Assembly: GCA_021738065.1 (NCBI GenBank)
Contig: JAIPCT010000020.1
Location: forward strand, 1-45,557
Direction of reading: 5' to 3'
Length of the DNA stretch: 45,557 nt
Source: Burkholderiaceae bacterium
Lineage (GTDB): Bacteria; Pseudomonadota; Gammaproteobacteria; Burkholderiales; Rhodocyclaceae
This document shows positions 4,888 to 33,971 of this stretch, one piece after another. The notes under the pieces are model-generated. The model was given only the letters and a program-made list of their open reading frames with translations, ran no database searches and was not told the DNA's origin. Position 1 is the first letter of the stretch; every line of letters starts with the position of its first letter. Both the position numbers and the translations under genes were made by a program.

Positions 4888-4909
4888 GTCGGTTCAGGTA
4901 AAACAACTG

Positions 4910-9769: not shown

Positions 9770-9778
9770 GCCGCGATT

Positions 9779-10087: not shown

Positions 10088-10163
10088 AAATTTTCTCCAT
10101 CCATATGTGCCCGTAGCGCTAGTGCGGCGTTGCATTCTTGATGGAACACTGAAAATGGCACCC

Positions 10164-11775: not shown

Positions 11776-11797
11776 TCATTCACCCAGGAGAAAACCC

Positions 11798-12364: not shown

Positions 12365-12430
12365 ACCTCGCCGGGCTGGGCTCGCCCATCCTCGTCGGCG
12401 CGGCGGAAGCGACTGATTTGCTCGCTGCGC

Positions 12431-12448
12431 GCGACGGTCGCCCGTCGC
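12431..12448. terminator. Hairpin in the convergent spacer after yceI (possible terminator)
   Basis: Seven-base-pair stem GCGACGG/CCGTCGC with a TCGC loop, in the 104-bp gap between two convergent operons. No adjacent T-run. Confidence 0.35.
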
Positions 12449-12468
12449 ACCGAACCGGCTAACTCTGG

Positions 12469-13515: not shown

Positions 13516-13964
13516 CGTGGCGCTCCGGAGTGGCGGCGGCGCGGCTTCCAGGCCGCCACGCCCTGCATGATCACGGGGAAGGGCAACTCGCCCAGCGCAC
13601 CGTAGCGATCCCGCGCCAGGCGCACCAGGCGCCGCACATCCGGCAGCGCGGTATCGGCATCGAGCAGGGCCTTCAAACCATCGATCCCGCCGCACTGGAT
13701 TTTCATCACCATGGCGTGCGGCAGGATCCGCCCGGTGTCGGTGAGGCCGAGTGCAAACGCCGACTTGTCGCGCAGCAGTGCGGACATCTCGGTGCAAGCC
13801 GCATGGGCCGCCGGCCCGACGCAGGCCACCAGCTCCCGTTCGGCGATCTGATGCCGCAGCGAACACTCGCACACCGCGTGGTGCACCAGCAGCGCGCGCT
13901 CGAAGATGCAGGGCAGACGATTGATCTCCCCCCGGGCTTGACGAAAGGCGGCTTCGTCAACCAC
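13512..13964 (-). CDS. Conserved protein of unknown function (150 aa)
   Basis: 150 residues from a GTG start (13964) with a GAGGA ribosome site upstream, beginning 4 nt after the preceding stop. It is cysteine-containing in its N-terminal half: LPCIFERALLVHHAVCECSL, then VACVGPAAHAACTEM, with a later KIQCGGIDG. The spacing CxC plus two more cysteines could bind a metal or cluster, but no known motif is matched. The C-terminal part is basic (RRRHSGAPR). Tight coupling on both sides implies joint function with the Sfum_1244-like protein. Confidence 0.65.
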   Translation of the reverse strand: MVDEAAFRQARGEINRLPCIFERALLVHHAVCECSLRHQIAERELVACVGPAAHAACTEMSALLRDKSAFALGLTDTGRILPHAMVMKIQCGGIDGLKALLDADTALPDVRRLVRLARDRYGALGELPFPVIMQGVAAWKPRRRHSGAPR

Positions 13965-16044: not shown

Positions 16045-16173
16045 GCCTGTCAGCATAGCCAAACTGGCACAGCGCGCGATTTCAAATTTTTATGATCGCT
16101 TGAGCGGCAACAGCGTGGCGCCCCGTGGCGACCGGGTTCCCGTCGGCTGAGCCATCGGGCAAGTGCAAGCGCC

Positions 16174-18663: not shown

Positions 18664-18852
18664 GGCCTGATTCTATTACTAACGATATAAGTCTGAGGGA
18701 TCTGTCCACGCCAGTGGCCCAAGTTTGAATTTGGCGTACCCAAGTATCGACAGAGTAGCGTGTGAAACGTGCCGAGCCAGTATGTCGACTTCCGGGCGCA
18801 CCACGTCACGGCTAAGGCCAGTACTATGCGCCATCTATGGGGGAATAGCGTG

Positions 18853-20028
18853 ATGAACCTTGAAACTCGCGGACTCGGCCTGGCTCCCGGCACGGCGGGC
18901 GATTACCGGGAACTGGCGCGCCGGCGCCTGCCACGACAGTTTTTCGATTATCTGGACGGCGCCGCTTACGATGAGTTCACGGCCGGCGAAAATCTGGCCG
19001 CGTTTCGCCGCATTCAATTGCGTCAGCGCGTCCTGCGCGATGTCTCGCAGCTGAATCTGGGCACGCAGGTGCTGGGTCAGGCGCTTGCCATGCCGCTGAT
19101 CCTCGGCCCCCTGGGTCTGGCCGGCGTCATGGCGCGCCGGGCCGAGGCTCAGGCAGCGCGCGCCGCCGAAGGTTCGGGCGTGGCGTTTTGCGAATCGACC
19201 GTATCCATCTGCTCGATCGAGGAAGTGCGGGCCGCGACCACGGCGCCTTTCTGGTATCAGCTGTATGTAATGCGTGATCGAAGCTACGCCCGGGAGCTGA
19301 TGCATCGAGCCCAGGCCGCCGGCTGCCCGATACTGGTGCTGACGGTGGATCTGGCCGTGATGGGCACACGCTACCGCGACATCCGCAACGGCATGGCCGG
19401 CGTCCTGCCGCTGGCCGGCAAACTGACCAAGGCCTGGGACTTGGTCTCGCACCCGCGCTGGTTGCTCGATGTGGCGATCCGCGGCAAGCCGCTGATGTTC
19501 GGCAATCTGACCACGGCGGTGCCTGACGCGCGCAGCCTGCCCGAATTCAAGTCCTGGGTGGATAGTCAGTTTGATCCGCGCATCACTTGGGACGACCTGG
19601 CCTGGGTACGCCAGAACTGGTCCGGCAAGATTCTGCTCAAGGGCATTCTCGACGTGGACGATGCGCGCCAGGCCGCGGCAGCGGGTGCCGATGGCATCGT
19701 CGTCTCGAATCACGGCGGCCGCCAACTGGATGGGGTCGAAGCCAGCATCGACGCTCTGCCGCGAATTGTGGACGCCGTCGGCGACAAGCTTGAGGTATTG
19801 ATGGACGGCGGCGTGCGCAGCGGCCTGGATGTGGTGAAGGCGCTCGCGCTCGGCGCCAAGGCGTGCATGCTCGGCCGCGCCTGGGGCTACGCGGTGGCGG
19901 CCCGCGGCGAAGCCGGCGTGGCCCACATGCTCTCGGTCATGCGCAGCGAAATTGCGACGGCCATGGCGCTGTGCGGCGAAACCGACGTACGCCGCCTGAG
20001 CCGGGAAACGCTGCTCGGCCCGGACTGA
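18853..20028 (+). CDS. lldD: FMN-dependent L-lactate dehydrogenase / alpha-hydroxy acid oxidase
   Basis: 391 residues, the LldD length. Family features are RQFFDYLDGAAYDEFT near the N-terminus, LGPLGLAGVM, the FMN-phosphate region YQLYVMRDR, TVDLAVMGTRYRDIRNG, the lysine of ILLKGILDVDDA, the catalytic pair in SNHGGRQLD (His287, Arg290) and LMDGGVRSGLDVVKAL. It oxidises an L-2-hydroxy acid, most likely L-lactate, to the 2-oxo acid and feeds quinone or cytochrome. The exact substrate cannot be fixed by sequence; related enzymes use glycolate or mandelate. ATG at 18853 follows a GGGG tract about 10 nt upstream. Confidence 0.87.
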   Translation: MNLETRGLGLAPGTAGDYRELARRRLPRQFFDYLDGAAYDEFTAGENLAAFRRIQLRQRVLRDVSQLNLGTQVLGQALAMPLILGPLGLAGVMARRAEAQAARAAEGSGVAFCESTVSICSIEEVRAATTAPFWYQLYVMRDRSYARELMHRAQAAGCPILVLTVDLAVMGTRYRDIRNGMAGVLPLAGKLTKAWDLVSHPRWLLDVAIRGKPLMFGNLTTAVPDARSLPEFKSWVDSQFDPRITWDDLAWVRQNWSGKILLKGILDVDDARQAAAAGADGIVVSNHGGRQLDGVEASIDALPRIVDAVGDKLEVLMDGGVRSGLDVVKALALGAKACMLGRAWGYAVAARGEAGVAHMLSVMRSEIATAMALCGETDVRRLSRETLLGPD

Positions 20029-20093: not shown

Positions 20094-20284
20094 ACCACGG
20101 CGACACGGCGAAAACTACCCATATATTGAGTCGGCTGTAATCCACTTGAACGTTCGCCCTGAGCTTGTCGAAGGGCATTCTGGGCTTCGACAAGCTCAGC
20201 CCGAACGGTGGTTTCAAGTTCAGAGGGGCCGGATCAATAGTTCCGCTGCTTGCTTTGCGCCGTGTCGCCGTGTTCGCCGTGGTC
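20094..20284. repeat. R1 B-arms flanking MITE copy 2
   Basis: A left B arm (20094-20113, ACCACGGCGACACGGCGAAA) and a right B' arm (20257-20284) enclose the 116-bp MITE, so the MITE appears nested in an R1 element. The right arm ends at the hyfI stop codon. Confidence 0.7.
20124..20239. mobile_element. 116-bp palindromic MITE, copy 2 (inverted relative to copy 1)
   Basis: Reverse complement of 10251-10366 with only two differences, both near one end. Terminal TATTGAGTCGGC and its imperfect mirror are present, with TA at each edge. Confidence 0.8.
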
Positions 20285-20804
20285 AAGCACTCGGTTTTTT
20301 CTTGCGAATCGCCGCCAGGATGCCCTGCATCAAGGCCAGCGGTGTTGGCGGACAACCGGGAATGCGCAGATCGACATCGATCACATTGGCGACGGCACCG
20401 CAACTGGCGTAGCTCTCGCCAAACACGCCGCCATTGCAACCGCAGTCGCCCACCGCGACGACCAGCTTGGGATCGGGGGTGCAGTCGTGGGCGATACGCA
20501 GCGCGTTCTCCATGTTTCGTGTCACCGGCCCGGTCACCAGCAGCATGTCCGCGTGGCGCGGACTGGCGACAAACTTGATGCCGCGTCCCTCAAGGTTGTA
20601 ATAGGGATTGTTGAGCGCATGAATCTCCAGCTCGCAGCCATTGCAGGAGCCGGCATCGACTTCGCGTATGGTCAGCGCCCGACCGAGCACATGCAGGATC
20701 TCGTCATGCAGCCGATCGACCTCGCGTTGCGGGCCATCCTCGGCGGCAGGCGCTGGCTCGGTGAGGATGCCGGTACGAAATATGTGCCTGAGTATTGGAA
20801 TCAT
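20283..20804 (-). CDS. HyfI/NuoB-like small subunit of a hydrogenase-related membrane complex
   Basis: 173 residues of the NuoB/HycG/HyfI fold, the subunit that holds the membrane-proximal 4Fe-4S cluster. Cluster cysteines are Cys54 and Cys57 (GSCNGCELE), Cys121 (VGDCGCNGG) and Cys151 (IPGCPPTP), so the cluster should form. MLLVTGPVTRNMENAL and the proline-rich PGCPPTPLALM are family hallmarks. It is the last gene of the SulP-Hyf operon. A 169-bp spacer separates it from the large subunit, and that spacer is open from a GTG overlapping the hyfG stop to a TGA overlapping this ATG. The gene ends against an R1 repeat arm. Confidence 0.87.
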   Translation of the reverse strand: MIPILRHIFRTGILTEPAPAAEDGPQREVDRLHDEILHVLGRALTIREVDAGSCNGCELEIHALNNPYYNLEGRGIKFVASPRHADMLLVTGPVTRNMENALRIAHDCTPDPKLVVAVGDCGCNGGVFGESYASCGAVANVIDVDLRIPGCPPTPLALMQGILAAIRKKKPSA

Positions 20805-20973
20805 GTCGTCCCCAGGAAACCAAGCGGTTCGGGCGTGAGACGGCCGCCGGCCCGGAGCTCACGCGCCGTGGGCGCGACAACGACCCCGCCCATGACCGGA
20901 GCCACCGGCAAGTGCCGCGCGTCGTGAGTTCGCAGGCATCCGCTCGGCGGAGAGTTGGTGGCGACGTGGCAGG

Positions 20974-22548
20974 TCACAAATCCACCCCGCTGTAGGAAAG
21001 ATTGAACGACTTGTTGATCAAGGGAAAATCGGGAACGATGTCTTTCACTACCGCATGTTCCAGCGCCGGCCAGGCCTGCCATGAAGGGTCGTGCGGGTGC
21101 ACGCGGGCCAGCCTGCCGTCAGTGCCGAACTGGACGCCGACCAGCACCTCACCGCGCCAGCCTTCGACCACGCCAAGCCCCCTCGCTCCGGCGACGGGTG
21201 CGACGTCGACACGGCTGGCGCTTTGCGGCATGGCCACGGCCAGTTGGCGCAGCAGACGCAGCGATTCGGCGATTTCCGCAAAGCGCACCGCCACACGCGC
21301 CGCCACGTCGCCGCGCTCATCGGTGACTGGGCGCACCCCCAAGACGGCGTAGGGCGGTGGCGGGGTGTAGCCCTGCCGATGCGCCCGCCCATCGAGCAGA
21401 ACGCCGCAGGCGCGGGCGGCCATACCGGTCAGCGACAGTTCGCGCGCCAGTGCGATGTCGATGAAGCCGGTGGTCGCAAAACGATCCTGCAAGCCGGCAT
21501 GCTCGCCGTAAAGCTTGCCCAGTTTGGCCACTTCGTCGCCGATGACAGCGCATTGATCGACTATCGCGTCAAACGCTGCGGGCTCGACATCTGCGGCGAC
21601 ACCGCCCGGCACAATGCAATCCATCATCAAACGATGGTCGAACACTTGATGGTTCAAACGCAGCCAGTCTTCCTTCAGGCGCAGAAACTGTGTGAGACCG
21701 AAGGCGAAGGCGGCATCGTTACCCAAAGCGCCGAGGTCGCCAAGATGATTGGCCACGCGCTCGCGTTCCAGCATCAGCGCGCGCAACAGCAAGGCCCGCG
21801 GCGGCACCTCGACCCGGCACGCCGCCTCGACCGCGTCGGCATAGGCCCAGGCGTAGGCACAGGTCGAGTCACCGGAAACGCGACCCGCCAGACGCGCACC
21901 CTGCGCCACATCGGCACCGATGAACAGCTTTTCGACACCCTTGTGCTGGTAGCCCAGGCGCTGCTCCAAACGCAGCACGCGCTCGCCGATGACGGAAAAC
22001 CGGAAGTGGCCCGGCTCGATGATGCCGGCATGAATCGGACCGACCGGAATTTCGTGCGCGCCCTCGCCGCCGACCTGGACGAAATCGTAGTCACTGGGCG
22101 CGTTTTCGAAGCCCGCGCCCATCGCCTCGGCCGGCACGGCGTCATGGCGCAGCGGATACCAGTCAGCCGGCCAGGCGCCATGGCGCAGCCAGGGCCGCTG
22201 ATCACCGCCGTCGGTGGCGATGCCGACCATGTCGCGGGTGGCGCGCTGCATTCGGTTGGCGGCCGGGAACTTGCGCGACAAATCGGGGTAGCAGGGCTCA
22301 TCGGCTGGCAGTTCAAGGGTCAGCCAGGCGTGGCCTTGATTCAGGCCGAAAACGCAATGCAGGCGAAAGCCGCCGCCGCGTTGCCGTTCGTCGCTGCCCC
22401 AGATGGCCGCCAGGCGGCCTCCGGCGAGATGCGCGGCGGCAGTGAAATCGAGCAGCGCTTCACGGCTTGGCGCGCGACCGCGCCAGACCGGTGCGCCGAT
22501 TCCGGGCTGCGGCGTGAACTCAATGGTGGTGTCGTCGCAAAGGAACAT
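20974..22548 (-). CDS. HyfG/NuoCD-like subunit lacking NiFe-binding cysteines
   Basis: 524 residues: an N-terminal NuoC-like domain (about 1-130) fused to a NuoD/HycE-like domain. Conserved anchors are GPIHAGIIEPGHFRF, RLGYQHKGVEKLF, ERERVANHLGDLG and GRAHRQGY. In hydrogenases the first metal motif is RVCGIC; here the aligned stretch is RVSGDS (Ser225, Ser228). The C-terminal DPCxxC is replaced by FPLINKSFNLSY. The protein therefore cannot hold a NiFe centre and is not a hydrogenase. It resembles the large subunit of energy-converting hydrogenase-related (Ehr) complexes. Its ATG lies 2 nt after a 58-codon ORF in the same operon. Confidence 0.87.
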   Translation of the reverse strand: MFLCDDTTIEFTPQPGIGAPVWRGRAPSREALLDFTAAAHLAGGRLAAIWGSDERQRGGGFRLHCVFGLNQGHAWLTLELPADEPCYPDLSRKFPAANRMQRATRDMVGIATDGGDQRPWLRHGAWPADWYPLRHDAVPAEAMGAGFENAPSDYDFVQVGGEGAHEIPVGPIHAGIIEPGHFRFSVIGERVLRLEQRLGYQHKGVEKLFIGADVAQGARLAGRVSGDSTCAYAWAYADAVEAACRVEVPPRALLLRALMLERERVANHLGDLGALGNDAAFAFGLTQFLRLKEDWLRLNHQVFDHRLMMDCIVPGGVAADVEPAAFDAIVDQCAVIGDEVAKLGKLYGEHAGLQDRFATTGFIDIALARELSLTGMAARACGVLLDGRAHRQGYTPPPPYAVLGVRPVTDERGDVAARVAVRFAEIAESLRLLRQLAVAMPQSASRVDVAPVAGARGLGVVEGWRGEVLVGVQFGTDGRLARVHPHDPSWQAWPALEHAVVKDIVPDFPLINKSFNLSYSGVDL

Positions 22549-22550
22549 CG

Positions 22551-22727
22551 TCAGGCCTGCCCCAGGCTATGCCGACTCAGCCAGTATTCAATCGTGCGCA
22601 CGCCGCGGCAGAGCCACATCAACGGCACGCTTTTTCCCGAGAAACCCCACGGCGATTCCGGGCAGACCGAAGCCTGCACATCAGGCGCGATGCCGATACC
22701 AGAAGAGGAAGGAAACAAGAAAGTCAT
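22551..22727 (-). CDS. 58-residue small protein between hyfF and hyfG, unknown
   Basis: An ATG ORF starting 4 nt after the hyfF stop and ending 2 nt before the hyfG ATG, so it exactly fills the gap. The product begins MTFLFPSSSGIGIAPDVQAS, contains two cysteines (VCPESPWGF and MWLCRGV), and ends in an amphipathic, Trp/Tyr/Arg-bearing segment TIEYWLSRHSLGQA. There is no clear membrane helix and only a weak ribosome site, so translation would depend on coupling to hyfF. I recognise no family. Codon use is less biased in the first 15 codons, so a somewhat later start cannot be excluded. Confidence 0.5.
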   Translation of the reverse strand: MTFLFPSSSGIGIAPDVQASVCPESPWGFSGKSVPLMWLCRGVRTIEYWLSRHSLGQA

Positions 22728-22731
22728 GGTA

Positions 22732-24189
22732 TTAGCCGAGCATCTTTGCCGCTTCGTGAAACCAGCGCGTCAGGTAAGGCGGAATGTACAAACCCAGCAT
22801 CAGCACGATGCCAAGATGGAGAAACACCGGCGTGATGGCCGGTGCGTGCGGCAGGCGTCTGGCCTCTGTCTCGCCGAACACCATCGGCTGCACTTTGCCA
22901 AAAATTGCGGCAAAGGCCACGCCGAGCGCCAGCAAGAGTATCGGCGTCGCCCAGGGGTAATGCTTCATGGCATGGGTGAGGATCATGAACTCGCTGGCAA
23001 ACACCCCGAAAGGCGGCATGCCGAGTATGGACAGGGTGCCGAGCATCAAGCCCCAGCCGATCAGCGGATTGATCTTGATCAGGCCGCGGATGTCGGCCAT
23101 CAACTGGGTTCCGGTCTTCTGCGTGGCATGGCCGACGGCGAAGAAGATGGCCGACTTGGTCAGCGAGTGCATGGTCATGTGCAGCAGACCGGCAAAATTG
23201 GCCACCGCGCCGCCCATGCCGAAAGCAAAGGTGATGAGGCCCATGTGCTCGATGGACGAATAGGCAAACATGCGCTTGACATCTTTCTGGCGGGACAGAA
23301 AGAAGGCGGCGACCAGCAGCGTGAACAAGCCGAAACCCATCATCAGATTGCCGGCGAAATTGCCCGGGATGGCGCCATCGGCCAGTACCTTGCAGCGCAG
23401 GATGGCATACAGCGCGACGTTGAGCAGCAGGCCGGAGAGCACGGCGGAAACCGGCGTCGGGCCTTCGGCGTGAGCATCCGGCAGCCAGTTGTGCAGCGGC
23501 GCCAGGCCCACCTTGGTGCCGTAGCCGACCAGCAGGAAGATGAAGGACAAGGCCATGATGTTGGGCTCGAGCTGGGCTTTGACGTCGATCAGATGCGTCC
23601 ACAGCAGTGCGTTGCCGCTTGCGCCCAGCACCCGCTCGGCGGCGAAGTAGAGCAGGATGGTGCCGAACAATGCCTGGGCAATGCCGACACCGCAGAGGAT
23701 GAAGTACTTCCACGCCGCTTCCAGGCTCGCCGGCGTCCGGTAGAGCGAAACCAGCAGCACGGTCGTCAGCGTCGCCGCTTCCATGGCCACCCAGAGCAAA
23801 CCCAGATTGTTGGTGGTCAGGGCCACCAGCATGGTGAACATGAAGAGCTGGTACATGCTCTTGTAGAGGCGCAGGCGCACCTCGGTGAGCTTGCCGTGCT
23901 CACGCTCGTTCTTCATGTAGGGGCCGGAAAAGATGCTGGTGGTCAGCCCGACGAAGGCCGTCAGCGCGACGAAAAATACGTTCAGCGAATCGATGAAGAA
24001 CTGCTCGCCAAAAGCGAAGCGGGGGCCGTTGGCGACAACCTCGACGGTCAGGCCGACCGAGGCGAGAAAGGTACCGAGACTGGCGACGATGTTGAGGTTG
24101 GGCGCCCAGGCGCGCTCGCCGACCACCGTCAGCAATGCGCCGCTGACAAGGGGAATGACGAGCATGAGGACAAAGAAATCCATCGCCAT
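22732..24189 (-). CDS. HyfF/NuoN-like antiporter-type membrane subunit
   Basis: 485 residues, about 13-14 membrane helices. It belongs to the Mrp antiporter/NuoLMN superfamily. The glutamate helix reads LGLLWVAMEAATLTTVLL. The lysine helix and following loop read GYGTKVGLAPLHNWLPDAH then GPTPVSAVLSGLLLN. A second broken-helix lysine region is near KRMFAYSSIEHMG, and FGVFASEFMIL is also present. Key ion-path residues are kept, so proton or sodium translocation is plausible. The ATG overlaps the hyfE TGA by one base (TGATG), meaning tight coupling. It is one of two such antiporter-like subunits in the operon. Confidence 0.9.
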   Translation of the reverse strand: MAMDFFVLMLVIPLVSGALLTVVGERAWAPNLNIVASLGTFLASVGLTVEVVANGPRFAFGEQFFIDSLNVFFVALTAFVGLTTSIFSGPYMKNEREHGKLTEVRLRLYKSMYQLFMFTMLVALTTNNLGLLWVAMEAATLTTVLLVSLYRTPASLEAAWKYFILCGVGIAQALFGTILLYFAAERVLGASGNALLWTHLIDVKAQLEPNIMALSFIFLLVGYGTKVGLAPLHNWLPDAHAEGPTPVSAVLSGLLLNVALYAILRCKVLADGAIPGNFAGNLMMGFGLFTLLVAAFFLSRQKDVKRMFAYSSIEHMGLITFAFGMGGAVANFAGLLHMTMHSLTKSAIFFAVGHATQKTGTQLMADIRGLIKINPLIGWGLMLGTLSILGMPPFGVFASEFMILTHAMKHYPWATPILLLALGVAFAAIFGKVQPMVFGETEARRLPHAPAITPVFLHLGIVLMLGLYIPPYLTRWFHEAAKMLG

Positions 24190-24857
24190 CAGTTGTCTTT
24201 CAGCCGTTCCATGTGATGGATGTCGAGACTGTCGAACTGGTCGCGGATCTGAAAGAAGAACACGCCGAGGATGATGACGCCGACCAGCACGTCGAGCGCA
24301 ATGCCAAGTTCCACCACCATCGGCATGCCATAGGTGGCGCTGGTGGCGGCCAGAAACAGGCCGTTTTCCATGGACAGGAAGCCGACCACCTGGGTGATGG
24401 CTTTCTGCCGCGTGATCATCATCAGGAACGCCAGCATTACCACGGCCAGGGCGATGCCCAGCGTGCCCCGCGTGATGGTGTGCGAGAGGTCGGATATCGG
24501 CAGCGCGACATTGAAGGCGACCATGACGAGGAAGAGCCCGACCAGCATCGTGGTCGGGATATTGATCAGCGCCTCGACTTCACCCTTTACCTTGAGCTTG
24601 CGCACCAGACGATGCAGGATCCAGGGCAGCAGCAACACCTTGAGCAGCAGCGTCAGTCCGGCCGAGTAGTACAGATGCATCTGGCCGGTCGTCATGGCCG
24701 CCACCAGCGTCGCCAGACACAAAGCCAATCCCTGCAGGGCAAACAGATTGATCAACGCCAGCACCCGGCGCTGCGCCAGCATGGCGAAGGCCAGCAGCAG
24801 AATCACCGCCGCGAAGAGATTGATGAGCTGGGCGGAAAACGGAATAGCAGCGCTCAT
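24189..24857 (-). CDS. HyfE-like (NuoK-related) membrane subunit
   Basis: 222 residues and about six to seven membrane helices, the HyfE length. NuoK-like features appear in the last third: ITQVVGFLSMENGLFLAATS and VVELGIALDVLVGVIILGVF, with the conserved acidic residues in membrane helices. A good ribosome site (AGGGAAA) precedes the ATG at 24857. A 196-bp spacer separates it from hyfC; that spacer is an open frame from a TTG at the hyfC stop, but its peptide looks like a GC-rich shadow. It ends in a short cytoplasmic tail (SLDIHHMERLKDN). Confidence 0.88.
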   Translation of the reverse strand: MSAAIPFSAQLINLFAAVILLLAFAMLAQRRVLALINLFALQGLALCLATLVAAMTTGQMHLYYSAGLTLLLKVLLLPWILHRLVRKLKVKGEVEALINIPTTMLVGLFLVMVAFNVALPISDLSHTITRGTLGIALAVVMLAFLMMITRQKAITQVVGFLSMENGLFLAATSATYGMPMVVELGIALDVLVGVIILGVFFFQIRDQFDSLDIHHMERLKDN

Positions 24858-25053
24858 ACGTTTTCCCTGCAACGCAGTGCGGGTGCCGGGCCGTCCCAGG
24901 GCCCTCGCCGAGTTGGAGGGCAAACCCCCACGTCACGCGCCGGAGGCGCAACAGGTACAGTATCCGGATGCAAAGCGCCCCGTAATTGATGCGCGCAGCG
25001 AACCTGCAGACTCCTCCCCAGACGGGGCGGCAGGGAGGGGTGAGCCAAGAGCT

Positions 25054-26010
25054 TCAAACGCGGACCTCCAGCAGCAGGCGCACCAGCAAGCCGAGCACCG
25101 CCAGCATGAAGGCGATGCCAAGAAACTCGGGGGCGCGGAAGATGCGCATCTTGGCATTGATGGTTTCAATGCCGGCCAGCAGGAAGCCGCCGATGGCGAG
25201 CTTCACCAGCAGCAGCGGAATCGCCGCCAGCAGCGCGGGAAAGCTGTCACCCGCGGCGATGCCCCAGGGAAAGAACAACGCCAGGCCGAGGCAGGAATAG
25301 GCGTAAAGCTTGAGGCTGGCGGCCCACTCGATCAGCGCCAGGTGGCGGCCGGAGTATTCGAGAATCATCGCCTCATGAATCATCGTCAGTTCGAGGTGGG
25401 TGGCCGGATTGTCCACCGGCACGCGGGCGTTCTCGGCCAGCGAGACGAAGGTGAACGCAATGCCGGCGAAGGCCAGGCTCGGATAAATCACCAGTTCGCG
25501 GTGTGCCAGCGTCTCGACGATGGTGGTAACCGAGGTCGATTGGGCGATCATGGCCAGAGTGAAAATCACCATCAGCAGCGCCGGCTCGGCAAGAAACCCG
25601 ATCAGCATTTCGCGTCGGCCGCCGAGGCTGCCGAAGGAGGTGCCGACATCCATGGCCGCCAGGGAAATGAACACGCGGGCCAGACCGAACACCCCGACCA
25701 GCGCCAGGGCGTCGGCGGCTGGAGCCAGCGGCAGGTCGGTCGACAGGCTGGGGATGATGGCGCAGGCGAGGACCATGCAGCCGAAAACAACAAAGGGCGC
25801 CGCGCGAAACAGCGACGAAGCCCCGTGCGCCAGTACCACATCCTTGTGGAAGAGCTTCTGCAGCATATAGAAAGGCAGCAAAAGGGGCGGCGCACTGCGA
25901 CTCTGCAGCCAGGCTCGGCATTGCCCGACCCAACCCGAGAGCAGCGGCGCCAGCACCAGAGCCAGCAGAATTGCAAACGCCTGACCGAGCAGTCCAGAAA
26001 AGCTGATCAT
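25054..26010 (-). CDS. HyfC/NuoH-like membrane subunit
   Basis: 318 residues, eight predicted helices, the NuoH/HycD/HyfC size. The signature loop LENARVPVDNPATHLELTMI followed by HEAMILEYSG carries the acidic cluster thought to link redox chemistry to ion pumping. GGRREMLIGFLAEPALLM matches the cytoplasmic loop near the quinone or cluster region. ATG at 26010 overlaps the hyfB TGA by four bases. Confidence 0.92.
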   Translation of the reverse strand: MISFSGLLGQAFAILLALVLAPLLSGWVGQCRAWLQSRSAPPLLLPFYMLQKLFHKDVVLAHGASSLFRAAPFVVFGCMVLACAIIPSLSTDLPLAPAADALALVGVFGLARVFISLAAMDVGTSFGSLGGRREMLIGFLAEPALLMVIFTLAMIAQSTSVTTIVETLAHRELVIYPSLAFAGIAFTFVSLAENARVPVDNPATHLELTMIHEAMILEYSGRHLALIEWAASLKLYAYSCLGLALFFPWGIAAGDSFPALLAAIPLLLVKLAIGGFLLAGIETINAKMRIFRAPEFLGIAFMLAVLGLLVRLLLEVRV

Positions 26011-28016
26011 GGCCGCGCCACCAACAAGAGCACAAGGAGGGTGATGAAGCTGTACATCAGATACACGGCGATGCGCCCGCCCTGCAGCGTGACAATCAGC
26101 GTCGATATCCAACCGGCGAGTCTGGCCAGCGGCAGATAGAGCCAGTGCCAGAAATGATCCTCGACCTTGACGCTGTAATACGGGTTGGCATCGCGGGCTG
26201 TCGGGAAATGCCGGGTCATGCGAAACATCGGCTCGAAGATGCGGCGGATCGGCTGGCTGAAACCCTCAGCCGTATCCTGCGCCCGCGGCCCCTGAAAATG
26301 GTAGCCGCAGTCCCAGGCCGTGGTGCGCCGCACACGGCCATGATAGAGCCGACGCACCAGCCAGCGCCCCATTAGCAGTGTGGCGGCAATGGTGACGAGG
26401 AAGATCAAGGGTTCGTAGCTGGCGCGTTCGGCAGAAATCGGCGCCAGCATCCACCAGCCCTGCTCGTTCAGCCTGTCAGCGAGGCCCGTACCGAGCATCT
26501 GGCGGGTGGCGGCATCAATGCGCAAGATCACCGTCGATGGCAAGACCCCCAACATCAACGTGATGAGCGTCAGCCAGACCAGGCCGAACTTCTCCCACGG
26601 TCCGGCATCGTGGGCATCCTTGAGTGCCGGCTCGCGCATCTGGCCGAGAAAAATGATGCCGTAGAATTTGACCATGGCGAAGCCGGCCAGCGCAGCGACC
26701 AGAACCACCAGCGCCGCCGCCACGGGAACCAGCATGTTGAGCCAGGGATGCGGCAGGCCCGGCGAGAACAGGAAGCTTTGCAGCAGCAGCCATTCTGAAA
26801 CGAATCCCGACAAGGGCGGCAATCCCGCGCTGGCTATGACGCCGACCAGGGCCAGCCAGGCCACCCAAGGCATGCGGTGAATCAGCCCGCCGAGCTTGCC
26901 CAGGCTGCGCTCCCTGGTTGCGTGCAGCACCGAGCCGGTGCAGAGAAACAGCAGGCTCTTGAAGGCGGCATGGGCGAGGCAGTGGTAGAGCACGGCCGTC
27001 ATGGCCAGTGCCGCCAGCGCTTCCATGCGATAAGCATGGAAGATCAGAGTCAGGCCGATGCCGACCGCGATCAGCCCGATGTTCTCGATCGAGGAATAGG
27101 CCAGCAAGCGCTTCATGTCGCTTTGCACCGTGCTGTAGAGCACGCCGAACAGCGCCGTGACGAGACCCACCGCCAGCGCCACGACACCCCACCACCAGAG
27201 CGTCGCGTGCAGCAGGTCGAAACTCACGCGCAGCAAACCGTAGATGGCGGTCTTCAACATCACGCCACTCATCATCGCCGACACCGGCGAAGGTGCCGCC
27301 GGATGCGCCTCAGGCAGCCAGACATGGAGCGGAACCAGACCGGCCTTGGCGCCGAAACCCGCCAGCGCCAACAGGAAGGCGGCCGAGGCCCAGAACGGCG
27401 ACAGTTCCTGAGCACGCATGCCGGCAAAGCTGTAATCGCCGGCGCCGCCGGTCATGACGCCGAAGCACAGCAGGATGGCGATCGCGCCGACGTGGGCAAT
27501 CAGCAGATACAGAAAACCGGCGCGGCGGATTTCCTCCTGGCGATGGTCGGTGGTGACCAGGAAAAACGACGACAGAGCCATGGTTTCCCACGCCACCATG
27601 AATGCATAGGCATCGTCGGCCAGCAGCACCATGAGCATGCTGGCGAGAAAGGCGTGGTATTGCAGGCACATCAATCCCGGCGCGGCCCCCTCGCCCTTGC
27701 GGAAATAGCCGGCGGCAAAAATCGAGATGCCGACTGAGACAAAGCCCAGAAGCATGGCGAACAACGCGCTCAGATTGTCGAGCCGCAGATGGAAGGGCAA
27801 GTCGGGCAGGCCAATCGACAATACGGCAACTTCCGCCGCCTTGCCCAGGGAGCTCAGGGCGACCAACCCCACCAGCAGGCCAATCAGGGCGCCCATTGGA
27901 AACAGCATTTTGCTGATGAAGTGCAGATTGCGCGGCGCCGCCAGCCCGGCAAATCCGATAGCCAGCCAGGCACAGACGGCGAACAGCAGCAGGTCGATGG
28001 AAAGAAGAGTCGGCAT
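26007..28016 (-). CDS. HyfB/NuoL-like antiporter-type membrane subunit
   Basis: 669 residues, about 16 helices, with the HyfB-type C-terminal extension. The glutamate helix reads MVAWETMALSSFFLVTTDHR. The lysine helix reads GFGAKAGLVPLHVWLPEAHP with APSPVSAMMSGVMLK, then LLAYSSIENIGLIA and ASAGLPPLSGFVSEWLL. The C-terminal HyfB tail motif is WDCGYHFQGPRAQ. These match functional ion-translocating subunits. The ATG overlaps the SulP stop by one base (TAATG), which directly couples synthesis of the transporter and the complex. Confidence 0.92.
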   Translation of the reverse strand: MPTLLSIDLLLFAVCAWLAIGFAGLAAPRNLHFISKMLFPMGALIGLLVGLVALSSLGKAAEVAVLSIGLPDLPFHLRLDNLSALFAMLLGFVSVGISIFAAGYFRKGEGAAPGLMCLQYHAFLASMLMVLLADDAYAFMVAWETMALSSFFLVTTDHRQEEIRRAGFLYLLIAHVGAIAILLCFGVMTGGAGDYSFAGMRAQELSPFWASAAFLLALAGFGAKAGLVPLHVWLPEAHPAAPSPVSAMMSGVMLKTAIYGLLRVSFDLLHATLWWWGVVALAVGLVTALFGVLYSTVQSDMKRLLAYSSIENIGLIAVGIGLTLIFHAYRMEALAALAMTAVLYHCLAHAAFKSLLFLCTGSVLHATRERSLGKLGGLIHRMPWVAWLALVGVIASAGLPPLSGFVSEWLLLQSFLFSPGLPHPWLNMLVPVAAALVVLVAALAGFAMVKFYGIIFLGQMREPALKDAHDAGPWEKFGLVWLTLITLMLGVLPSTVILRIDAATRQMLGTGLADRLNEQGWWMLAPISAERASYEPLIFLVTIAATLLMGRWLVRRLYHGRVRRTTAWDCGYHFQGPRAQDTAEGFSQPIRRIFEPMFRMTRHFPTARDANPYYSVKVEDHFWHWLYLPLARLAGWISTLIVTLQGGRIAVYLMYSFITLLVLLLVARP

Positions 28017-30139
28017 TACTTCGGCGGCAACAGACAAAACGCCCCTTCGACGCCCTCCGCCGTGACACTCGCCCGGATCGACTCGAGCGCATGATCGGCG
28101 TTGATGAAAAAGTTTGCGTCGCCAATCGTGGCAAGCAGGCCCGTGGCGCGCATGACATCGATTACCTGTTTTTTGAATCCTGCAAACACCATATTGACGC
28201 CGCTGCTCCTTAGCCGCTCGACCAGATGACGCATGACCTCCTCCCCGGACGCATCGAGCTCGTTGATGCCATCCCCGACGACGAGAAGATACTTTGCTTT
28301 GGGATTGCGGGCAACCGCTTCAAGGATCGCGTCCTCGAAGAACGAGACGTTGGCGAAGTAGAGGCGCCCATCGAAGCGAACTGCCGTGACCACTTCCGAT
28401 GCCGGCAGACTGTGTACCCGTGCGTCGCGCAACATACCGTCGGGATGGCGGCCGAGGATGGCGACCCTCGGCTTCATGGTCCGCAGCAAGTAGAGCATGA
28501 TGGCCAGACCGGCGCCCAGCATGATGCCATTGTCGAGGTGCGGGGCAAAAGTGAGCGTTGCAACAAAAGTAACGACCGCGGCAATACCGTCGTGCCTGTT
28601 GGCCCGCCAGGCGTGCTTGATGGCGCCGAAATTGACCAGGCCGATGACCGCCATGATGATTACCGCAGCCAGCACGGCCTGCGGCAAGTGATACAGCAGC
28701 GGCGTCAGGAACAGCAGGGTCAGCAGCACGCAGACGGCGGTGATCACCGACGATATGCCGGTTTTTGCGCCGGCGTCGATGTTGACCGCGGAACGCGAAA
28801 ACGACCCGGAGACGGGAAATGACTGGGTCATGCTGCCGACCAGATTCGCCAGGCCCTGGCCGATCAGTTCCTGGTTGGGGTCGATCTTGTCCTTGGTTTT
28901 CGCGGCCATGGCCTTGGCGATCGAGATTGCCTCCATGAAACCCACCAGCGAGATGACGACGGCTGCGGAAAACAGGCTGCCGACCATGTCCCACGAAAAG
29001 CCGGGCAGTCCGACCGACGGCAAGCCTTGCGGTACCTTGCCGACCACTTCGCCGCCACCGCTCACCTTGATTCCTCCGCTGGCTGCCTTGGCGATGCGCC
29101 AGGTGCGACCATCACCTTGCATGCCGGCCGGCACGCCGCCCTGGGAATAGAACATTGCCGGCTTTCCCGCGTCGCCGGACACCCGCTCCAGGACGATGCT
29201 GCGTATGACGCGGTTGCGCTTGCGATTCTCATCCTCGCGACCATGCAACTGCAGCCTGAGCAGTTCGATTTCGTAGCTCACGGTCGCTGCTTCATGCGCC
29301 TGCGGTTTGCCGCTCTTGCGCAGGGATCTGAGCTCGCCACCCTTGACGGCCAATTGGTCGGTGAACTCCTTGATGCGTGACTCGGTGCGGGCGAAATCGT
29401 CAAGCAGCAACCGCGCTTCCACGTCGACTATCTGTTCCGGCTCTGTCGTGACGCTGCGCTCGAAACCGATCAGCCAGGAAACCAGGGTAGTGAGAACAAC
29501 AGCGATCAGGACACCCGGTAGCTTCGGCGCCTTGCGCCGGATCAGCGCCATGACAATGATCGCTGCCGCACCCATCGCCAGCGTGGGCAGGTGAGTATCG
29601 CCGATCTGCTTGAACACCTCCCAGATATCGCGAATGAAGGACTCCGAACGACTCATCGGCACTCCCATCAGCTTGTTGACCTGGGACAGGCCGATGATGA
29701 TCGCGGCGGCGTTGGTGAATCCGGCGATGACCGGATGGGAGAGGAAGTTGACAATCACGCCAAGCTTGAACACGCCGAGGCCGAGCTGGATCACACCAAC
29801 CAGCAGGGCGAGCATGATGGCCAGCGCGATGAACTGGGCCGAGCCCGGCGCGGCCAAGGGCGCCAGCGATGACGCCGTCAGCAGCGACACCACGGCCACC
29901 GGCCCGGTCCCGAGCTGATTGGATGAGCCCCATAGCGCCGCCACCGCCACCGGCAGGAAGGCCGCGTAAAGACCGAAGTAAGGCGGCATGCCGGCCAGTT
30001 GCGCGTAGGCCATGGACTGCGGCACCAGCACCAGGGCCACGGTCAAACCGGCAATGAAGTCCGCCTTGAATATCCCTTTCGAATAGGGAAGCCAGCGCAG
30101 GAACGGGAACAGGCGACGTAGGATCAGTTGCTTGACCAT
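28016..30139 (-). CDS. SulP family anion transporter with STAS domain and large inserted loop
   Basis: 707 residues from MVKQLILRRL. The SLC26/SulP transmembrane core starts near residue 25 (AGLTVALVLVPQSMAYAQLA) and resumes at about 385 through 560, with VGFMEAISIAKAMAAK and the family stretch GQGLANLVGSMTQSFPVSGS. A C-terminal STAS domain runs about 590-707. Between SWLIGFERS (about 228) and VVGKVPQGLPSVGLPG (about 366-381) there is an extra segment of about 135 residues. Part is heptad-like and rich in Glu, Arg and Leu. Ordinary SulPs have about 20 residues here. Substrate could be bicarbonate or sulfate; the sequence does not decide. First gene of the Hyf-like operon. Confidence 0.9.
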   Translation of the reverse strand: MVKQLILRRLFPFLRWLPYSKGIFKADFIAGLTVALVLVPQSMAYAQLAGMPPYFGLYAAFLPVAVAALWGSSNQLGTGPVAVVSLLTASSLAPLAAPGSAQFIALAIMLALLVGVIQLGLGVFKLGVIVNFLSHPVIAGFTNAAAIIIGLSQVNKLMGVPMSRSESFIRDIWEVFKQIGDTHLPTLAMGAAAIIVMALIRRKAPKLPGVLIAVVLTTLVSWLIGFERSVTTEPEQIVDVEARLLLDDFARTESRIKEFTDQLAVKGGELRSLRKSGKPQAHEAATVSYEIELLRLQLHGREDENRKRNRVIRSIVLERVSGDAGKPAMFYSQGGVPAGMQGDGRTWRIAKAASGGIKVSGGGEVVGKVPQGLPSVGLPGFSWDMVGSLFSAAVVISLVGFMEAISIAKAMAAKTKDKIDPNQELIGQGLANLVGSMTQSFPVSGSFSRSAVNIDAGAKTGISSVITAVCVLLTLLFLTPLLYHLPQAVLAAVIIMAVIGLVNFGAIKHAWRANRHDGIAAVVTFVATLTFAPHLDNGIMLGAGLAIMLYLLRTMKPRVAILGRHPDGMLRDARVHSLPASEVVTAVRFDGRLYFANVSFFEDAILEAVARNPKAKYLLVVGDGINELDASGEEVMRHLVERLRSSGVNMVFAGFKKQVIDVMRATGLLATIGDANFFINADHALESIRASVTAEGVEGAFCLLPPK

Positions 30140-30370: not shown

Positions 30371-30922
30371 TCAGGCGTTCTTGCCCTTCTGCCACAACAC
30401 ATCGCCGCAGCCCGCCTGCTTGTTGAGCCAGCGGCCAAGAACGAACAGCAAATCGGAAAGCCGATTCAGATACTGCCGCCCGACGTCGGCCACCGTCTCC
30501 TCGGCGGCCAGCGCGACCAGCGCGCGTTCGGCACGGCGGCATACGGTGCGAGCCAGATGCGTGGTCGCCGCAGCACGGCTGCCGCCTGGAAGAATGAATT
30601 CCTTGAGCGGTGACAGGTCGCCGTTGTAATGATCAATGGCGGCTTCCAGTTGCGCGGGTTGCGTTGCCTTTAGAAGCACTGCGCCAGGTATCGACATTTC
30701 GCCGCCCAAGTCGAACAGATCGTGCTGGATACCGACCAGCAGATCGCGCAACTGCTCTGGCAATTCCTCGCAGAGCAGCAGACCAATCACCGAGTTGAGC
30801 TCATCGACCTCGCCCAGCGCGGCTATGCGCAGCGAATTCTTGGGCGTCCGCGAGCCATCGCCCAGTCCCGTGGTGCCGGCATCGCCGGTGCGGGTGTAGA
30901 TTTTCGACAGTCGATAACCCAT
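30371..30922 (-). CDS. Cob(I)alamin adenosyltransferase, PduO type
   Basis: 183 residues. The N-terminal ATP-binding motif is KIYTRTGDAGTTGLGDGSR, then GEVDELNSVIGLL, the middle GGEMSIPG, and the C-terminal helix region TVCRRAERALVAL followed by YLNRLSDLLFVLGRWLN. These are standard PduO-type ATR elements that transfer an adenosyl group from ATP to reduced cobalamin. ATG at 30922 has a GGAGCAG ribosome site. It lies between the SulP-Usp fusion and the SulP-Hyf operon, same strand, with a 38-bp gap to the former. No B12-dependent enzyme is visible in the window. Confidence 0.93.
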   Translation of the reverse strand: MGYRLSKIYTRTGDAGTTGLGDGSRTPKNSLRIAALGEVDELNSVIGLLLCEELPEQLRDLLVGIQHDLFDLGGEMSIPGAVLLKATQPAQLEAAIDHYNGDLSPLKEFILPGGSRAAATTHLARTVCRRAERALVALAAEETVADVGRQYLNRLSDLLFVLGRWLNKQAGCGDVLWQKGKNA

Positions 30923-30960: not shown

Positions 30961-33549
30961 TCAAGCCTGATTCTTCACCGCCGCTGCCATTTGCTCGGGC
31001 TCCGGCTGACGCTTGACCACCAGCACCGGACAAGCAATGCGGCCGATCACCTTGTCGGTGGTGCTGCCGGTGAGGGTGCGCTTCAGGCCCTTGCTTTGAT
31101 TGTTGCCGATGACCACCAGATCGGCACCGATTTCATCGATGACGCGAAGTATCGTCTGGGAAGGCACGCCCTCGACCACGCGGGTATCGCAGGCAACGCC
31201 TGCGGCCTTGAGGAAAGCGGCTTTCTGGGCGACATCTTCCTCCGCTTTCTGGCGCGTACCATCCTTGCCGACCACCGCCAGCACGGTGACCGGGAGCCAG
31301 GATGCCTTGGCGATCTGCGCGGCCAGTTCGACCGCGGTATCGCAAATCGGCGAACCGTCGGTGGGGAACAGAATGCGCTTCTCCCAGGGTTTGGATTGCC
31401 CGCCCGTGATCAACACATGGCAGGGCGCTTCCAGAATGATTTGCAAAGCGATATCGCCAACCATCTTCTCCTTGAAATCACCGCGCGGCGGACGGCGCCC
31501 GATGACCAGAATGCTGCTGTCCGCATCCGCCGCGGCGGCGACGACTTGCTGCACCGGCAATTTGCCATGGCGCACTATCTCCTCGGTATCGACCCCGGCA
31601 CGGCGCGCCGTATCGACCACCGCGGCCAGACGCAATTTTGCGGTTTCGTCATCGGCTTCGCTGGCGACGGCGGTCATCACATCCAGCGTGACGCCGAAGG
31701 CCTTGGCCAATGCCACCGCAACCGCCGTTGGCGGGAGCGCAAATTCGCTGCCATCGGTGGCCAGCATCAGGCGCTGGCGGCGCAGGCCGTCGGGCAGGAT
31801 GCCGCCATGGCATTCCTTGAAAATGCGCGGCTTGCAGTTGCGGCAGATGTCGGGATTGAGCGTCCAGTAGAGCGCCCCGGTGACATTGGTCATGACCGGG
31901 AAGAAGGCGCCTTCACCGATATCCTTGAGGTAGTCACCCTTGCGCAAAAAGTCGCGGATGGTGGAGTCGAGCCGATAGAAGTACAGACCTCCACCCAACC
32001 GACGACGACGACGCGCCTCCTGCGCCAGTATTTCGGCGCCGGCGATATCCATCGTGGTAAGCCTGCCGGCGTCGATCAACACTGACTTCTGCCGCGGATT
32101 GTCCTCGTCGATCTGCTGCAAGGCCTGCTGCACATAGCTCGCCGCGCCAAAATACACCGCGCCGTTGATGCGCACGATGCGCATCTGCGGGCATTCCGGT
32201 TTCCCCCGGGCGCGCGTGAAATGATAGGCGCCTTCCTCCGGTGCCGGTACCACGGGAAGTATCTCGGGCTTCGACGACCGGTAGAGATAGTTCACCAGCG
32301 ACAGGAAGACGCCAATGAATATACCCATCTCGAGGTTGATCAGCGTGCCGATCAGGGTCGACACCAGAATCGCCGACTCGGCCTTGCTGGTATGCCAGAT
32401 ATGCTCGATGTGATGGAAATCGATCAGGCCCCAGGCCACCAGAAACAGGATGCCAGCCATGGCAGCGTTCGGCAGATAGGCTGCCAGCGGCGCTACCGCC
32501 AGCAACACCAGCAGCAGCATGATCGATGCAAAAACCGAAGCCAGCGGTGTGCGCGCGCCGGCTTCATAGTTCACGCCGCTGCGATTGAAGGACCCGGAAG
32601 CGGCATAGGCCGAAAAGAAGGATCCCACGATGTTGGACAAACCCTGGCCGATGAACTCCTGATTGCCTTCGATGCGCTGCTCGGAGCGCACCGCGATGGA
32701 GCGGCTGATCGATACCGCCTCGGTCAGCGCCAGCATGGTGATGACCAGCGCCGGACCGACGGTATGGCGCAAGGTCTGCAAGGAAAAATCCGGAATGGAC
32801 AAAGGTGGCAGCGTGGCCGGCAAAGCGCCGACGGTCTTGATGCCGGTGGCGTCCTGGCCCATCAACTCGTTGAGGATCTCGGCGATGACACTGCCGACGA
32901 TCATCGCCAGAATCATGTAGGGGATTTTCTTGACGTAGCGGCGCGCCAGAATGCCGGTCGCCAGCGTGGCGACACCGACGCCGGCAACCCAGGGATTGAT
33001 GCTACCCGCCTGGACAACCAGTTGATGCATGATCTCGTGGAAGGGCGTGCCGCGCGGAATGTCAATTCCGAAGAAACTGCGTACCTGGCTGGCGGCAATC
33101 AGAATCGCGGCGCCGGCAGTAAAGCCGATCACCACGGTATGCGAAATGAAGTTCACCAGTGCGCCCATGCGCGCCAGGCCCAGTACCAGTTGAAATACAC
33201 CGACCAGAAACGTCAGGGTCAGGACCAGGCTGATGTACTGCGCCGAACCCGGCTCGGCCTGATGCGAAAGCGCTGCAAACACCGCGATGGAGATGGCCGT
33301 GGTCGGCCCCGAAACCAGGTGCCACGACGAGCCCCACAAGGCGGCGATGATGGCCGGCATCATGGCGGCATACAGACCGTACTGGGGCGGAAGGCCGGCA
33401 ATTGTGGCGAAGGCGACGCCCTGCGGCAGTACGATCAGTGCACCCGTGAAACCCGCCAGCAAGTCGTCGCGCGCCGTGCGGCGGCTGACCATCGGCCACC
33501 AGCGCAGGAAGGGCAGGAAGCGCGCGAGGGAAGGCGGGATGGATTTCAT
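30961..33549 (-). CDS. SulP-STAS transporter fused to two universal stress (Usp) domains
   Basis: 862 residues from ATG 33549 (MKSIPPSLARFLPFLRWW); a TTG eight codons upstream is an alternative. The SulP core covers about 25-420 (AGFTGALIVLPQGVAFATIA; ALTEAVSISRSIAVRSEQR; GQGLSNIVGSFFSAYAASGS). A STAS domain spans about 450-560. Then comes a cysteine motif DICRNCKPRIFKEC near 580, and two UspA-like domains starting RLMLATDGSEFAL and RILFPTDGSPICD. The second Usp keeps the ATP-loop form VVIGNNQSKGLKRTLTGST; the first has VVGD in place of the GS end. Usp domains probably make transport responsive to ATP or stress. Anion identity is unknown. Confidence 0.9.
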   Translation of the reverse strand: MKSIPPSLARFLPFLRWWPMVSRRTARDDLLAGFTGALIVLPQGVAFATIAGLPPQYGLYAAMMPAIIAALWGSSWHLVSGPTTAISIAVFAALSHQAEPGSAQYISLVLTLTFLVGVFQLVLGLARMGALVNFISHTVVIGFTAGAAILIAASQVRSFFGIDIPRGTPFHEIMHQLVVQAGSINPWVAGVGVATLATGILARRYVKKIPYMILAMIVGSVIAEILNELMGQDATGIKTVGALPATLPPLSIPDFSLQTLRHTVGPALVITMLALTEAVSISRSIAVRSEQRIEGNQEFIGQGLSNIVGSFFSAYAASGSFNRSGVNYEAGARTPLASVFASIMLLLVLLAVAPLAAYLPNAAMAGILFLVAWGLIDFHHIEHIWHTSKAESAILVSTLIGTLINLEMGIFIGVFLSLVNYLYRSSKPEILPVVPAPEEGAYHFTRARGKPECPQMRIVRINGAVYFGAASYVQQALQQIDEDNPRQKSVLIDAGRLTTMDIAGAEILAQEARRRRRLGGGLYFYRLDSTIRDFLRKGDYLKDIGEGAFFPVMTNVTGALYWTLNPDICRNCKPRIFKECHGGILPDGLRRQRLMLATDGSEFALPPTAVAVALAKAFGVTLDVMTAVASEADDETAKLRLAAVVDTARRAGVDTEEIVRHGKLPVQQVVAAAADADSSILVIGRRPPRGDFKEKMVGDIALQIILEAPCHVLITGGQSKPWEKRILFPTDGSPICDTAVELAAQIAKASWLPVTVLAVVGKDGTRQKAEEDVAQKAAFLKAAGVACDTRVVEGVPSQTILRVIDEIGADLVVIGNNQSKGLKRTLTGSTTDKVIGRIACPVLVVKRQPEPEQMAAAVKNQA

Positions 33550-33971
33550 CGGCGGCACGCGACAGCCTGACAAATACCGGAAAGATCGTAGCGCAATGGA
33601 GTACCGGAATGCTGAAATGGGATGCCGTGCCGACGACCGATGGTGCCGTACCGATATCCAGAAGAATCGATTTTTTGCCTGAACCCTGCAGTCCTGCGCT
33701 GTCGCTCAACCCGTAGCCAACGCATTCGAGTATCCGTGGCGCCCTGGTGCAGTCCAGTATCAAGTATAACTGCCCCACCCCCCGGCCGCGCCGCAAGTCG
33801 ATACGAAGCATTGATTCGGCGATAGAAATCCTGTTCCCTGTTGAATATCCGGACTTGCTACTATCGCGCGCGCTCTGCTTTTCTTTGCAGTTCACGGCGT
33901 TGCCGCGGCCGCCAAGCACCGCGCCGACCAACGCTTTTCGACACCTTCCTTTTCCAGGCGACTCAATTCCC
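33550..33971. other. Divergent spacer between the SulP-Usp and SLC13-type transporter genes
   Basis: 422 bp without a convincing gene. Frames through it have no family resemblance and codon use is irregular. It is less GC-rich in 33740-33900 and must hold promoters for both transporters. I find no hexamer pair with correct spacing, only loose candidates (TATAAC near 33765, TTGAAT at 33841). No repeat family member was recognised here. Confidence 0.5.

Follow-up and report, generated by a model that had tools for sequence, protein, structure and literature searches.

Gene content of the sulP-hyf locus

The window analysed here is a whole stretch of 45,557 nt, contig JAIPCT010000020.1 of assembly GCA_021738065.1, from a host genome of 3.4 Mb, and all coordinates refer to it. 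Its minus strand carries sulP, a gene for an anion transporter, followed by six genes for a Hyf-like membrane complex: hyfB, hyfC, hyfE, hyfF, hyfG and hyfI. Open reading frames (ORFs) together with Pfam and NCBIfam hidden Markov models confirm this order, which had been predicted from the window alone. SulP1, the 707-residue product of sulP (28016-30139), is an SLC26/SulP anion transporter with a STAS domain (PF00916, 1e-108; PF01740, 1.5e-12; TIGR00815). Its ATG start at 30139 agrees with relatives; in many of them the alignment to the longer ORF begins near residue 34.

The complex has two antiporter-like subunits, HyfB of the HycC/NuoL type (26007-28016; NF005086, 1.5e-268) and HyfF (22732-24189; NF005045, 1.3e-256), along with the NuoH-like membrane subunit HyfC (25054-26010; NADHdh PF00146, 2.7e-33) and a hydrogenase-4-type membrane subunit, HyfE (24189-24857), which has no Pfam match and reaches NF008556 at 2.6e-26, under the curated cut-off. 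HyfG (20974-22548) is the NuoC/D-like (HycE-like) large subunit, matching Complex1_49kDa at 2.6e-26 and Complex1_30kDa at 1.4e-9, and HyfI (20283-20804; Oxidored_q6 PF01058, 3.2e-30) is a NuoB-like subunit with four iron-sulfur cluster cysteines. Three start-stop overlaps, also predicted, are present in the window sequence: TAATG between sulP and hyfB, ATGA between hyfB and hyfC, and TGATG between hyfE and hyfF. Gaps of 200 bp and 169 bp separate hyfC from hyfE and hyfG from hyfI.

In agreement with the original prediction, no HyfA/HyfH-type ferredoxin gene, and no further Hyf subunit, occurs among the 30 scanned window proteins. No ferredoxin-type gene adjoins the cluster; the nearest scanned Fe-S proteins are a Fer2-domain protein (14581-16062), with two other genes between it and the cluster, and a Fer4/CCG protein (3646-4887).

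Loss of the NiFe site in the HyfBCEFGI core

HyfG lacks all four NiFe cysteines, as the prediction had stated. Alignment with its nearest solved structure, E. coli HycE (7z0s_E), places RVSGDS (21865-21882, minus strand) at the N-terminal NiFe CxxC position, where HycE has RVCGIC, and NKSFNLSYSG (20986-21015, minus strand) at the C-terminal one, where NLSYSG faces DPCYSC. The patterns S-G-D-S and NKSxNxSYSG are common to 12 of 12 rows of a first HyfG alignment. Across a wider alignment, none of the 20 rows holds both cysteines of either CxxC pair, and in three of them (L055, L111 and L122) the N-terminal pair retains its first cysteine. An active hydrogenase is ruled out by the absence of these cysteines, and a decaying one by the strong conservation of both the replacement motif and the remainder of HyfG.

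Other functional residues are retained. HyfI C54, C57, C121 and C151 align with the cluster cysteines of MbhJ and HycG, which bears out the predicted cluster-bearing NuoB-like subunit. The prediction also held that both antiporter-type subunits keep their ion-path lysine and glutamate. This stands for HyfB, whose path Glu and Lys and C-terminal Glu align with MBH subunit H (6cfw_H); E. coli HycC lacks the path Lys that HyfB keeps. For HyfF, the matching antiporter-type motifs were located by motif alone, with no structural alignment. Judged by its sequence, the core is an Ehr-type, non-hydrogenase complex.

Related clusters occur elsewhere. Two members of the window's genus carry a second hyfBCEFGI cluster, about 45% identical (L031, 4131-11435, in G013; L030, 1216-8763, in G010); NiFe cysteines are absent there too, and the fetched stretches contain no SulP match. 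At L067, genes for Hyf-like E, F, G and I (2-4400) lie directly upstream of a SulP-less, non-NiFe hyfBCEFGI, and the HyfG-like ORF among them has an intact RICGVC; a pattern search did not find its C-terminal NiFe motif. An intact-cysteine hydrogenase large subunit beside the cluster, which the original prediction had regarded as evidence against itself, is therefore seen in weak form at one of 132 loci, by RICGVC only and without a SulP.

Conservation of the sulP-hyf adjacency

The adjacency is not unique to this genome. Within the genus, close HyfB orthologues occur in 23 of 25 genomes, and an insert-type SulP lies 5' of them on the same strand in 22 of these 23, within about 0.25 kb in 21 cases and at 2.1 kb in G022. 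The count includes G007, whose SulP beside hyfB is in two pieces, and the one genome outside it is G024, where the contig breaks 5' of hyfB. G038, from another family, shows the same sulP-hyf arrangement.

A wider order sample comprises 200 genomes, all at least 90% complete except the window's own, and 52 of them contain HyfG at E <= 1e-90. Adjacency was counted in 46 of the 52 after dropping G231, G104, G261, G154, G257 and G200, in which a contig end lies near hyfB or hyfG. A same-strand SulP within about 5 kb 5' of hyfB is found in 15 of the 46, the window's own genome included. Thirteen of these SulPs are intact, that of G094 is a 175-residue fragment, and that of G119 lies about 4 kb away. 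Given 113 SulP matches in the 46 genomes, a rough estimate from density, with each genome taken as independent, predicts about 0.12 such adjacencies. A search at E <= 1e-20 finds no SulP whatever in at least nine of the hyf genomes.

A further set consists of named loci, the best 80 from a scan that listed at least 573 relatives. SulP is present in 13 of the best 80, and a 5' same-strand SulP in 10 of the 58 loci with at least 1.5 kb of sequence 5' of hyfB; at L054 the SulP is at the contig edge, at L103 it is downstream on the opposite strand, and at L130 it is within the operon. The terms translationally coupled and hard-wired, applied to the locus in the prediction, do not survive the comparison. 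The hyfB-hyfC and hyfE-hyfF overlaps were read in the window only, and the 1-base sulP-hyfB overlap occurs in 1 of 21 loci compared, with gaps of 12-180 bp in 18 of the 21, 2.1 kb in L051 and 2.7 kb in L070, where another SulP lies between sulP and hyfB. Translational coupling as a conserved feature is accordingly rejected, and two thirds of the order genomes counted lack a SulP neighbour, as given below.

SulP1 shows the Sulfate_transp domain, SLC26 fold and STAS domain that define the SulP/SLC26 family. Its model matches the structures of SULTR4;1, prestin, SLC26A9 and BicA; the fold searches confirmed known families and nothing further. Comparison with other SulPs and an AlphaFold model reveal an insert of about 130 residues (29039-29458, minus strand) in the predicted loop between transmembrane helices 7 and 8, which has 130 residues vs 0-10 in insert-less SulPs. 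By known SLC26 topology this loop would presumably be periplasmic. The insert is modelled as a long helical hairpin with a small beta region, a sketch only at a mean pLDDT of 70.7 and a pTM of 0.53.

In a single FastTree of 67 SulPs, midpoint rooted and with clades given without support values, the hyf-adjacent SulPs occupy at least four clades. The window's own clade is mostly insert-bearing, and its sister clade is insert-less (L138, L141, L148, L160). A third is the SulP2 clade (L064, L075, L166, L169), and a fourth holds divergent SulPs (the second copy of L070, and L127); L130 stands apart. This spread suggests several recruitments to the spot, or replacement there. The insert was considered as a hyf-specific part and rejected: several families share it, a SulP lying some 145 kb away from hyf (L038, G029) has it, and so do second copies in divergent orientation (L032-L035); it is missing from hyf-linked SulPs of other clades and from L078 of the same clade.

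Further SulP arrangements were observed. A second SulP with two Usp domains (30961-33573, minus strand; PF00916, and PF00582 in two stretches) lies in the window; such a Usp-fused second SulP recurs beside sulP-hyf in the genus, and some genomes hold a third SulP with a SulP1-type insert. L130, from a record of the Geobacteraceae, has its SulP (11604-13844) inside the operon, between hyfG and hyfI; this SulP is very divergent and extended by a long stretch at its C-terminus, and a further hyf-like cluster adjoins the operon.

Association with RubisCO and carbonic anhydrase

The window's own genome carries RubisCO (G000:C63), as do 21 of the 25 genus genomes at E <= 1e-30; the four without it are 70-85% complete. 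For the order sample, RubisCO was called at a best E below 1e-70, and 12 genomes with a RubisCO-like match above 1e-70 were excluded from the positives. Co-occurrence with autotrophy, which the prediction proposed as a check, holds for the complex as a whole: RubisCO is present in 37 of 52 HyfG genomes vs 38 of the remaining 148 (odds ratio 7.1, p 1.3e-8). Leaving out the window's own family gives 32/47 vs 38/147 (p 4e-7), and including the RubisCO-like matches gives 41/52 vs 46/148. Linkage sharpens the association in this sample. All 16 genomes with a SulP- or carbonic anhydrase (CA)-linked hyf have RubisCO, vs 21 of 36 unlinked (p 0.002), and with contig-edge cases removed the comparison becomes 16/16 vs 16/30 (p 0.0007). 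The 16 linked genomes, from six families, are the 15 SulP-linked ones and G136, linked by a gamma-CA alone. In G038, RubisCO is encoded about 6 kb from hyfI. RubisCO is also found in 39 of the 50 named genomes searched for it (50 of the best 80).

Some relatives place a gamma-CA gene at the head of the cluster. At L064, a gene between sulP and hyfB encodes a protein of 186 residues that matches Cam (1qrf, 1thj, about 1e-27) and CcmM, and its QDGVVIH and AHxSxVH histidines, which we take to be zinc ligands, align with those of Cam and CcmM. Complex I gamma-CA subunits are also matched, less well than Cam and CcmM. Members of this family lie near hyf in 10 of 132 examined loci, and in seven of the 132 (L064, L078, L132, L134, L143, L166, L169) no identified gene lies closer to hyfB on its 5' side than the gamma-CA, which is at a distance of about 10 bp in two of the seven and about 0.8 kb in L143. 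As background, 2 of 41 relatives have a gamma-CA at E <= 1e-25, neither of them on the hyf contig.

Other neighbours and sequence features

Regulatory genes recur near linked clusters. Nine loci carry a member of a sigma54-type response regulator family, and every one of these has a SulP- or CA-linked hyf; a histidine kinase family also occurs in nine loci, eight with such linkage. One member of each family was identified. Members were further identified in the genus loci L033 and L037; neither family is among the scanned window neighbours. A cobalamin adenosyltransferase gene, at 30371-30922 on the minus strand of the window (PF01923, 2.3e-57), recurs beside several hyf loci. Other genes that recur beside hyf, among them metG, dnaE, recG and a spermine-synthase-like gene, look like chromosomal context.

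On the other side of the cluster, the window encodes an FMN dehydrogenase (18769-20028, plus strand). A CitMHS-type transporter with TrkA-C domains (33747-35912, plus strand) is a further anion transporter near both SulPs. A minus-strand group at 3646-10135 encodes Fe-S CCG/Fer4, FAD-binding-4, MOFRL/DUF4147 glycerate-kinase-type and xylose-isomerase-like proteins; it looks like glycolate/glyoxylate salvage and would fit RubisCO-based growth. Downstream of hyfI, at 20151-20207, lies an imperfect inverted repeat with 23-nt arms, possibly a terminator or repeat element.

Three spacers of about 170-200 bp interrupt the row, between hyfC and hyfE (24858-25053), hyfF and hyfG (22549-22731) and hyfG and hyfI (20805-20973). 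The compared parts match neither each other nor any fetched relative, which rejects the three (169-200 bp) as copies of one repeat; spacers of similar length exist in some relatives, among them L021, where about 155 bp between hyfG and hyfI shows that the long spacing is not peculiar to the window. The hyfF/hyfG spacer is a single copy in its own genome. Within its 183 bp lies a 58-residue ORF (22551-22727, minus strand), which the prediction had listed as an ORF in the gene order. Pfam and NCBIfam give no match for it, tblastn at 1e-5 finds none in 17 stretches from relatives, and the spacer gives no blastn match in the fetched loci. A role as a small subunit was rejected as well, as a mere few bases separate hyfF from hyfG in L021, L033, L034 and L037, and about 90 bp do so in L035. 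By these comparisons the ORF is unlikely to be one of the genes of the complex.

Proposed role in inorganic-carbon supply

The chances are about even that sulP-hyfBCEFGI is an inorganic-carbon supply module of autotrophs, with SulP as a bicarbonate path and the Ehr-type core as its ion-translocating partner. SulP would bring an anion into the cell, bicarbonate being the likeliest, and the two antiporter-like subunits of HyfBCEFGI may conduct protons (or sodium), as their conserved residues suggest. This ion movement would sustain or drive bicarbonate accumulation for RubisCO. The drive could come from a redox drop entering at the HyfI iron-sulfur cluster, or from the export of protons freed by CO2 hydration. 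In lineages with a Cam-type gamma-CA encoded 5' of hyfB, that enzyme may turn CO2 into bicarbonate beside the complex, and SulP may be in physical contact with the complex. The association of the complex with RubisCO fits bicarbonate better than sulfate. Strong as the genomic links are, we infer substrate, energy source and contact from them, and the reading is therefore held at about one half.

Several observations weigh against it. SulP1 falls far under the BicA and DauA cut-offs, and its substrate cannot be read from its sequence. The quinone residues of NuoD are not kept in HyfG: in one pairwise alignment, T. thermophilus Nqo4 His38 and Tyr87, which we take in position and role to be quinone-site residues of complex I, fall on Ile and Gly. 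In 31 of 46 order genomes the core has no SulP on its strand within about 5 kb, and RubisCO is absent in 15 of 52 hyf genomes. The RubisCO tests ignore the relatedness of genomes, and the excess with SulP linkage does not extend to the named set, where RubisCO is present in 10 of 13 SulP-linked genomes (in L055 as a partial match) and in 29 of 37 without the link; L054, L127 and L130 are SulP-linked and have none. The genus of the window has no gamma-CA at E <= 1e-25 in any of 25 genomes, so this gene supports inorganic-carbon supply for relatives and not directly for this genome.

Because the core is found without an adjacent SulP, it must have a role independent of that neighbour, and the genomes lacking a SulP neighbour or RubisCO indicate that its basic function may differ. 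This leads to a somewhat unlikely but substantial alternative, in which the Hyf-like complex is a general lithotroph energy converter, engaged in reverse electron transfer, with quinol or some other donor reducing a low-potential acceptor, or in oxidation of formate in the manner of formate hydrogenlyase (FHL), and SulP is a co-regulated autotrophy gene. The loci include records from Gallionella, Sideroxyarcus and Ramlibacter lithotrophicus, and published proposals are those of reverse electron flow or formate oxidation in Acidithiobacillus (PMC2621215, PMC7735108) and of Ehr with formate dehydrogenase in Margulisbacteria (PMC6349859). An energy converter leaves unexplained the CA and the SulPs of several clades 5' of hyfB, however, and no ferredoxin-type or formate dehydrogenase gene is among the identified recurrent neighbour families, of which identification is partial.

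It is less probable still that SulP handles sulfate, exporting the end product of sulfur oxidation or taking sulfate up, while the complex supplies an ion gradient. The SulP family is annotated as sulfate permease, and Sulfuritalea, Thiobacillus and Acidithiobacillus include sulfur oxidisers. Yet a CA gene recurs 5' of hyfB, no sulfur gene appeared among the incompletely identified neighbour families, and every one of the 16 linked order-sample genomes has RubisCO; inorganic-carbon supply is favoured over sulfate. That the adjacency is mere chance or a quirk of this genome is highly improbable. The TAATG overlap, found at the window alone among 21 loci, would fit a quirk, but the adjacency itself is conserved (22/23 genus and 15/46 order genomes, with about 0.12 expected in the latter), and chance is thereby refuted.

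Comparison with known systems

Published Ehr complexes resemble the window core in having group-4-hydrogenase-like subunits, membrane proteins of antiporter type and a large subunit devoid of NiFe ligands. They occur in several distant lineages with their function stated as unknown (PMC10284858, PMC6349859), including Nitrospira (PMC10284858), and redox-driven ion translocation is suspected (PMC6349859). Among them is the six-gene non-hydrogenase hyf cluster of A. ferrooxidans (PMC7735108, PMC2621215); the parts of these accounts at hand differ in mentioning neither a SulP at the cluster head nor a Cam-type gamma-CA. Two papers, joined here by locus-tag order, place cbbM (AFE_2155, PMC6458275) after AFE2149-54 (PMC2621215). 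In A. caldus, a beta-CA gene lies next to one hyf cluster, and carbon fixation genes co-occur with another (PMC3826726). One sulfur oxidiser has a formate hydrogenlyase-like complex that lacks HyfA (PMC4136832), and formate hydrogenlyase is the interpretation offered for Sideroxydans (PMC5178258). Searches of the open-licence PMC literature turned up no account of an operon joining a SulP to an Ehr complex.

With E. coli hydrogenase-4/FHL (Hyf, Hyc), the locus shares subunit types B, C, E, F, G and I, and 7z0s is the closest solved structure for both HyfG and HyfB; it differs in the missing NiFe cysteines and HyfA/HyfH-type gene. Bicarbonate transporters of the SulP type, BicA and the can2-sulP product of A. 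ferrooxidans, resemble SulP1 in SulP fold and STAS domain. The can2-sulP pair of A. ferrooxidans combines a SulP with a CA partner gene (PMC6458275). SulP1 differs from BicA in scoring 126 bits against the curated cut-off of 880 for profile NF050096 and in carrying the unusual insert. Plant and algal mitochondrial complex I likewise ties a gamma-CA to a complex-I-type machine; here the gamma-CA is known from the gene neighbourhood of relatives only, none having turned up in the genus of the window.

DAB/MpsAB systems pair DabA with the NuoL-like DabB and so link a NuoL-type subunit to inorganic carbon, whereas the window has a whole six-subunit Ehr-type core. General scans of the 30 window proteins, with no search aimed at DabA, gave no match to it (PF10070). 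Cyanobacterial NDH-1 has another large subunit and another electron input than the Ehr-type core, and differs further in that the window locus has a SulP and some relatives a gamma-CA. NDH-1 with CupA/CupB is likewise a complex I relative tied to CO2 hydration and inorganic carbon (PMC6458275, PMC10880623, PMC6981117).

The conserved cluster of Ehr and SulP, in some cases with a CA, and its association with RubisCO make a concrete Ehr function testable. Tentatively, and with a probability well short of even, it may represent a further class of energy-coupled inorganic-carbon pump beside NDH-1 and DAB, in which an Ehr-type core with SulP, and in some lineages a gamma-CA, feeds RubisCO in chemolithoautotrophic proteobacteria. 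If true, this would be the first function for this group of Ehr complexes, and complex I relatives would have turned to carbon uptake in a lineage other than cyanobacteria.

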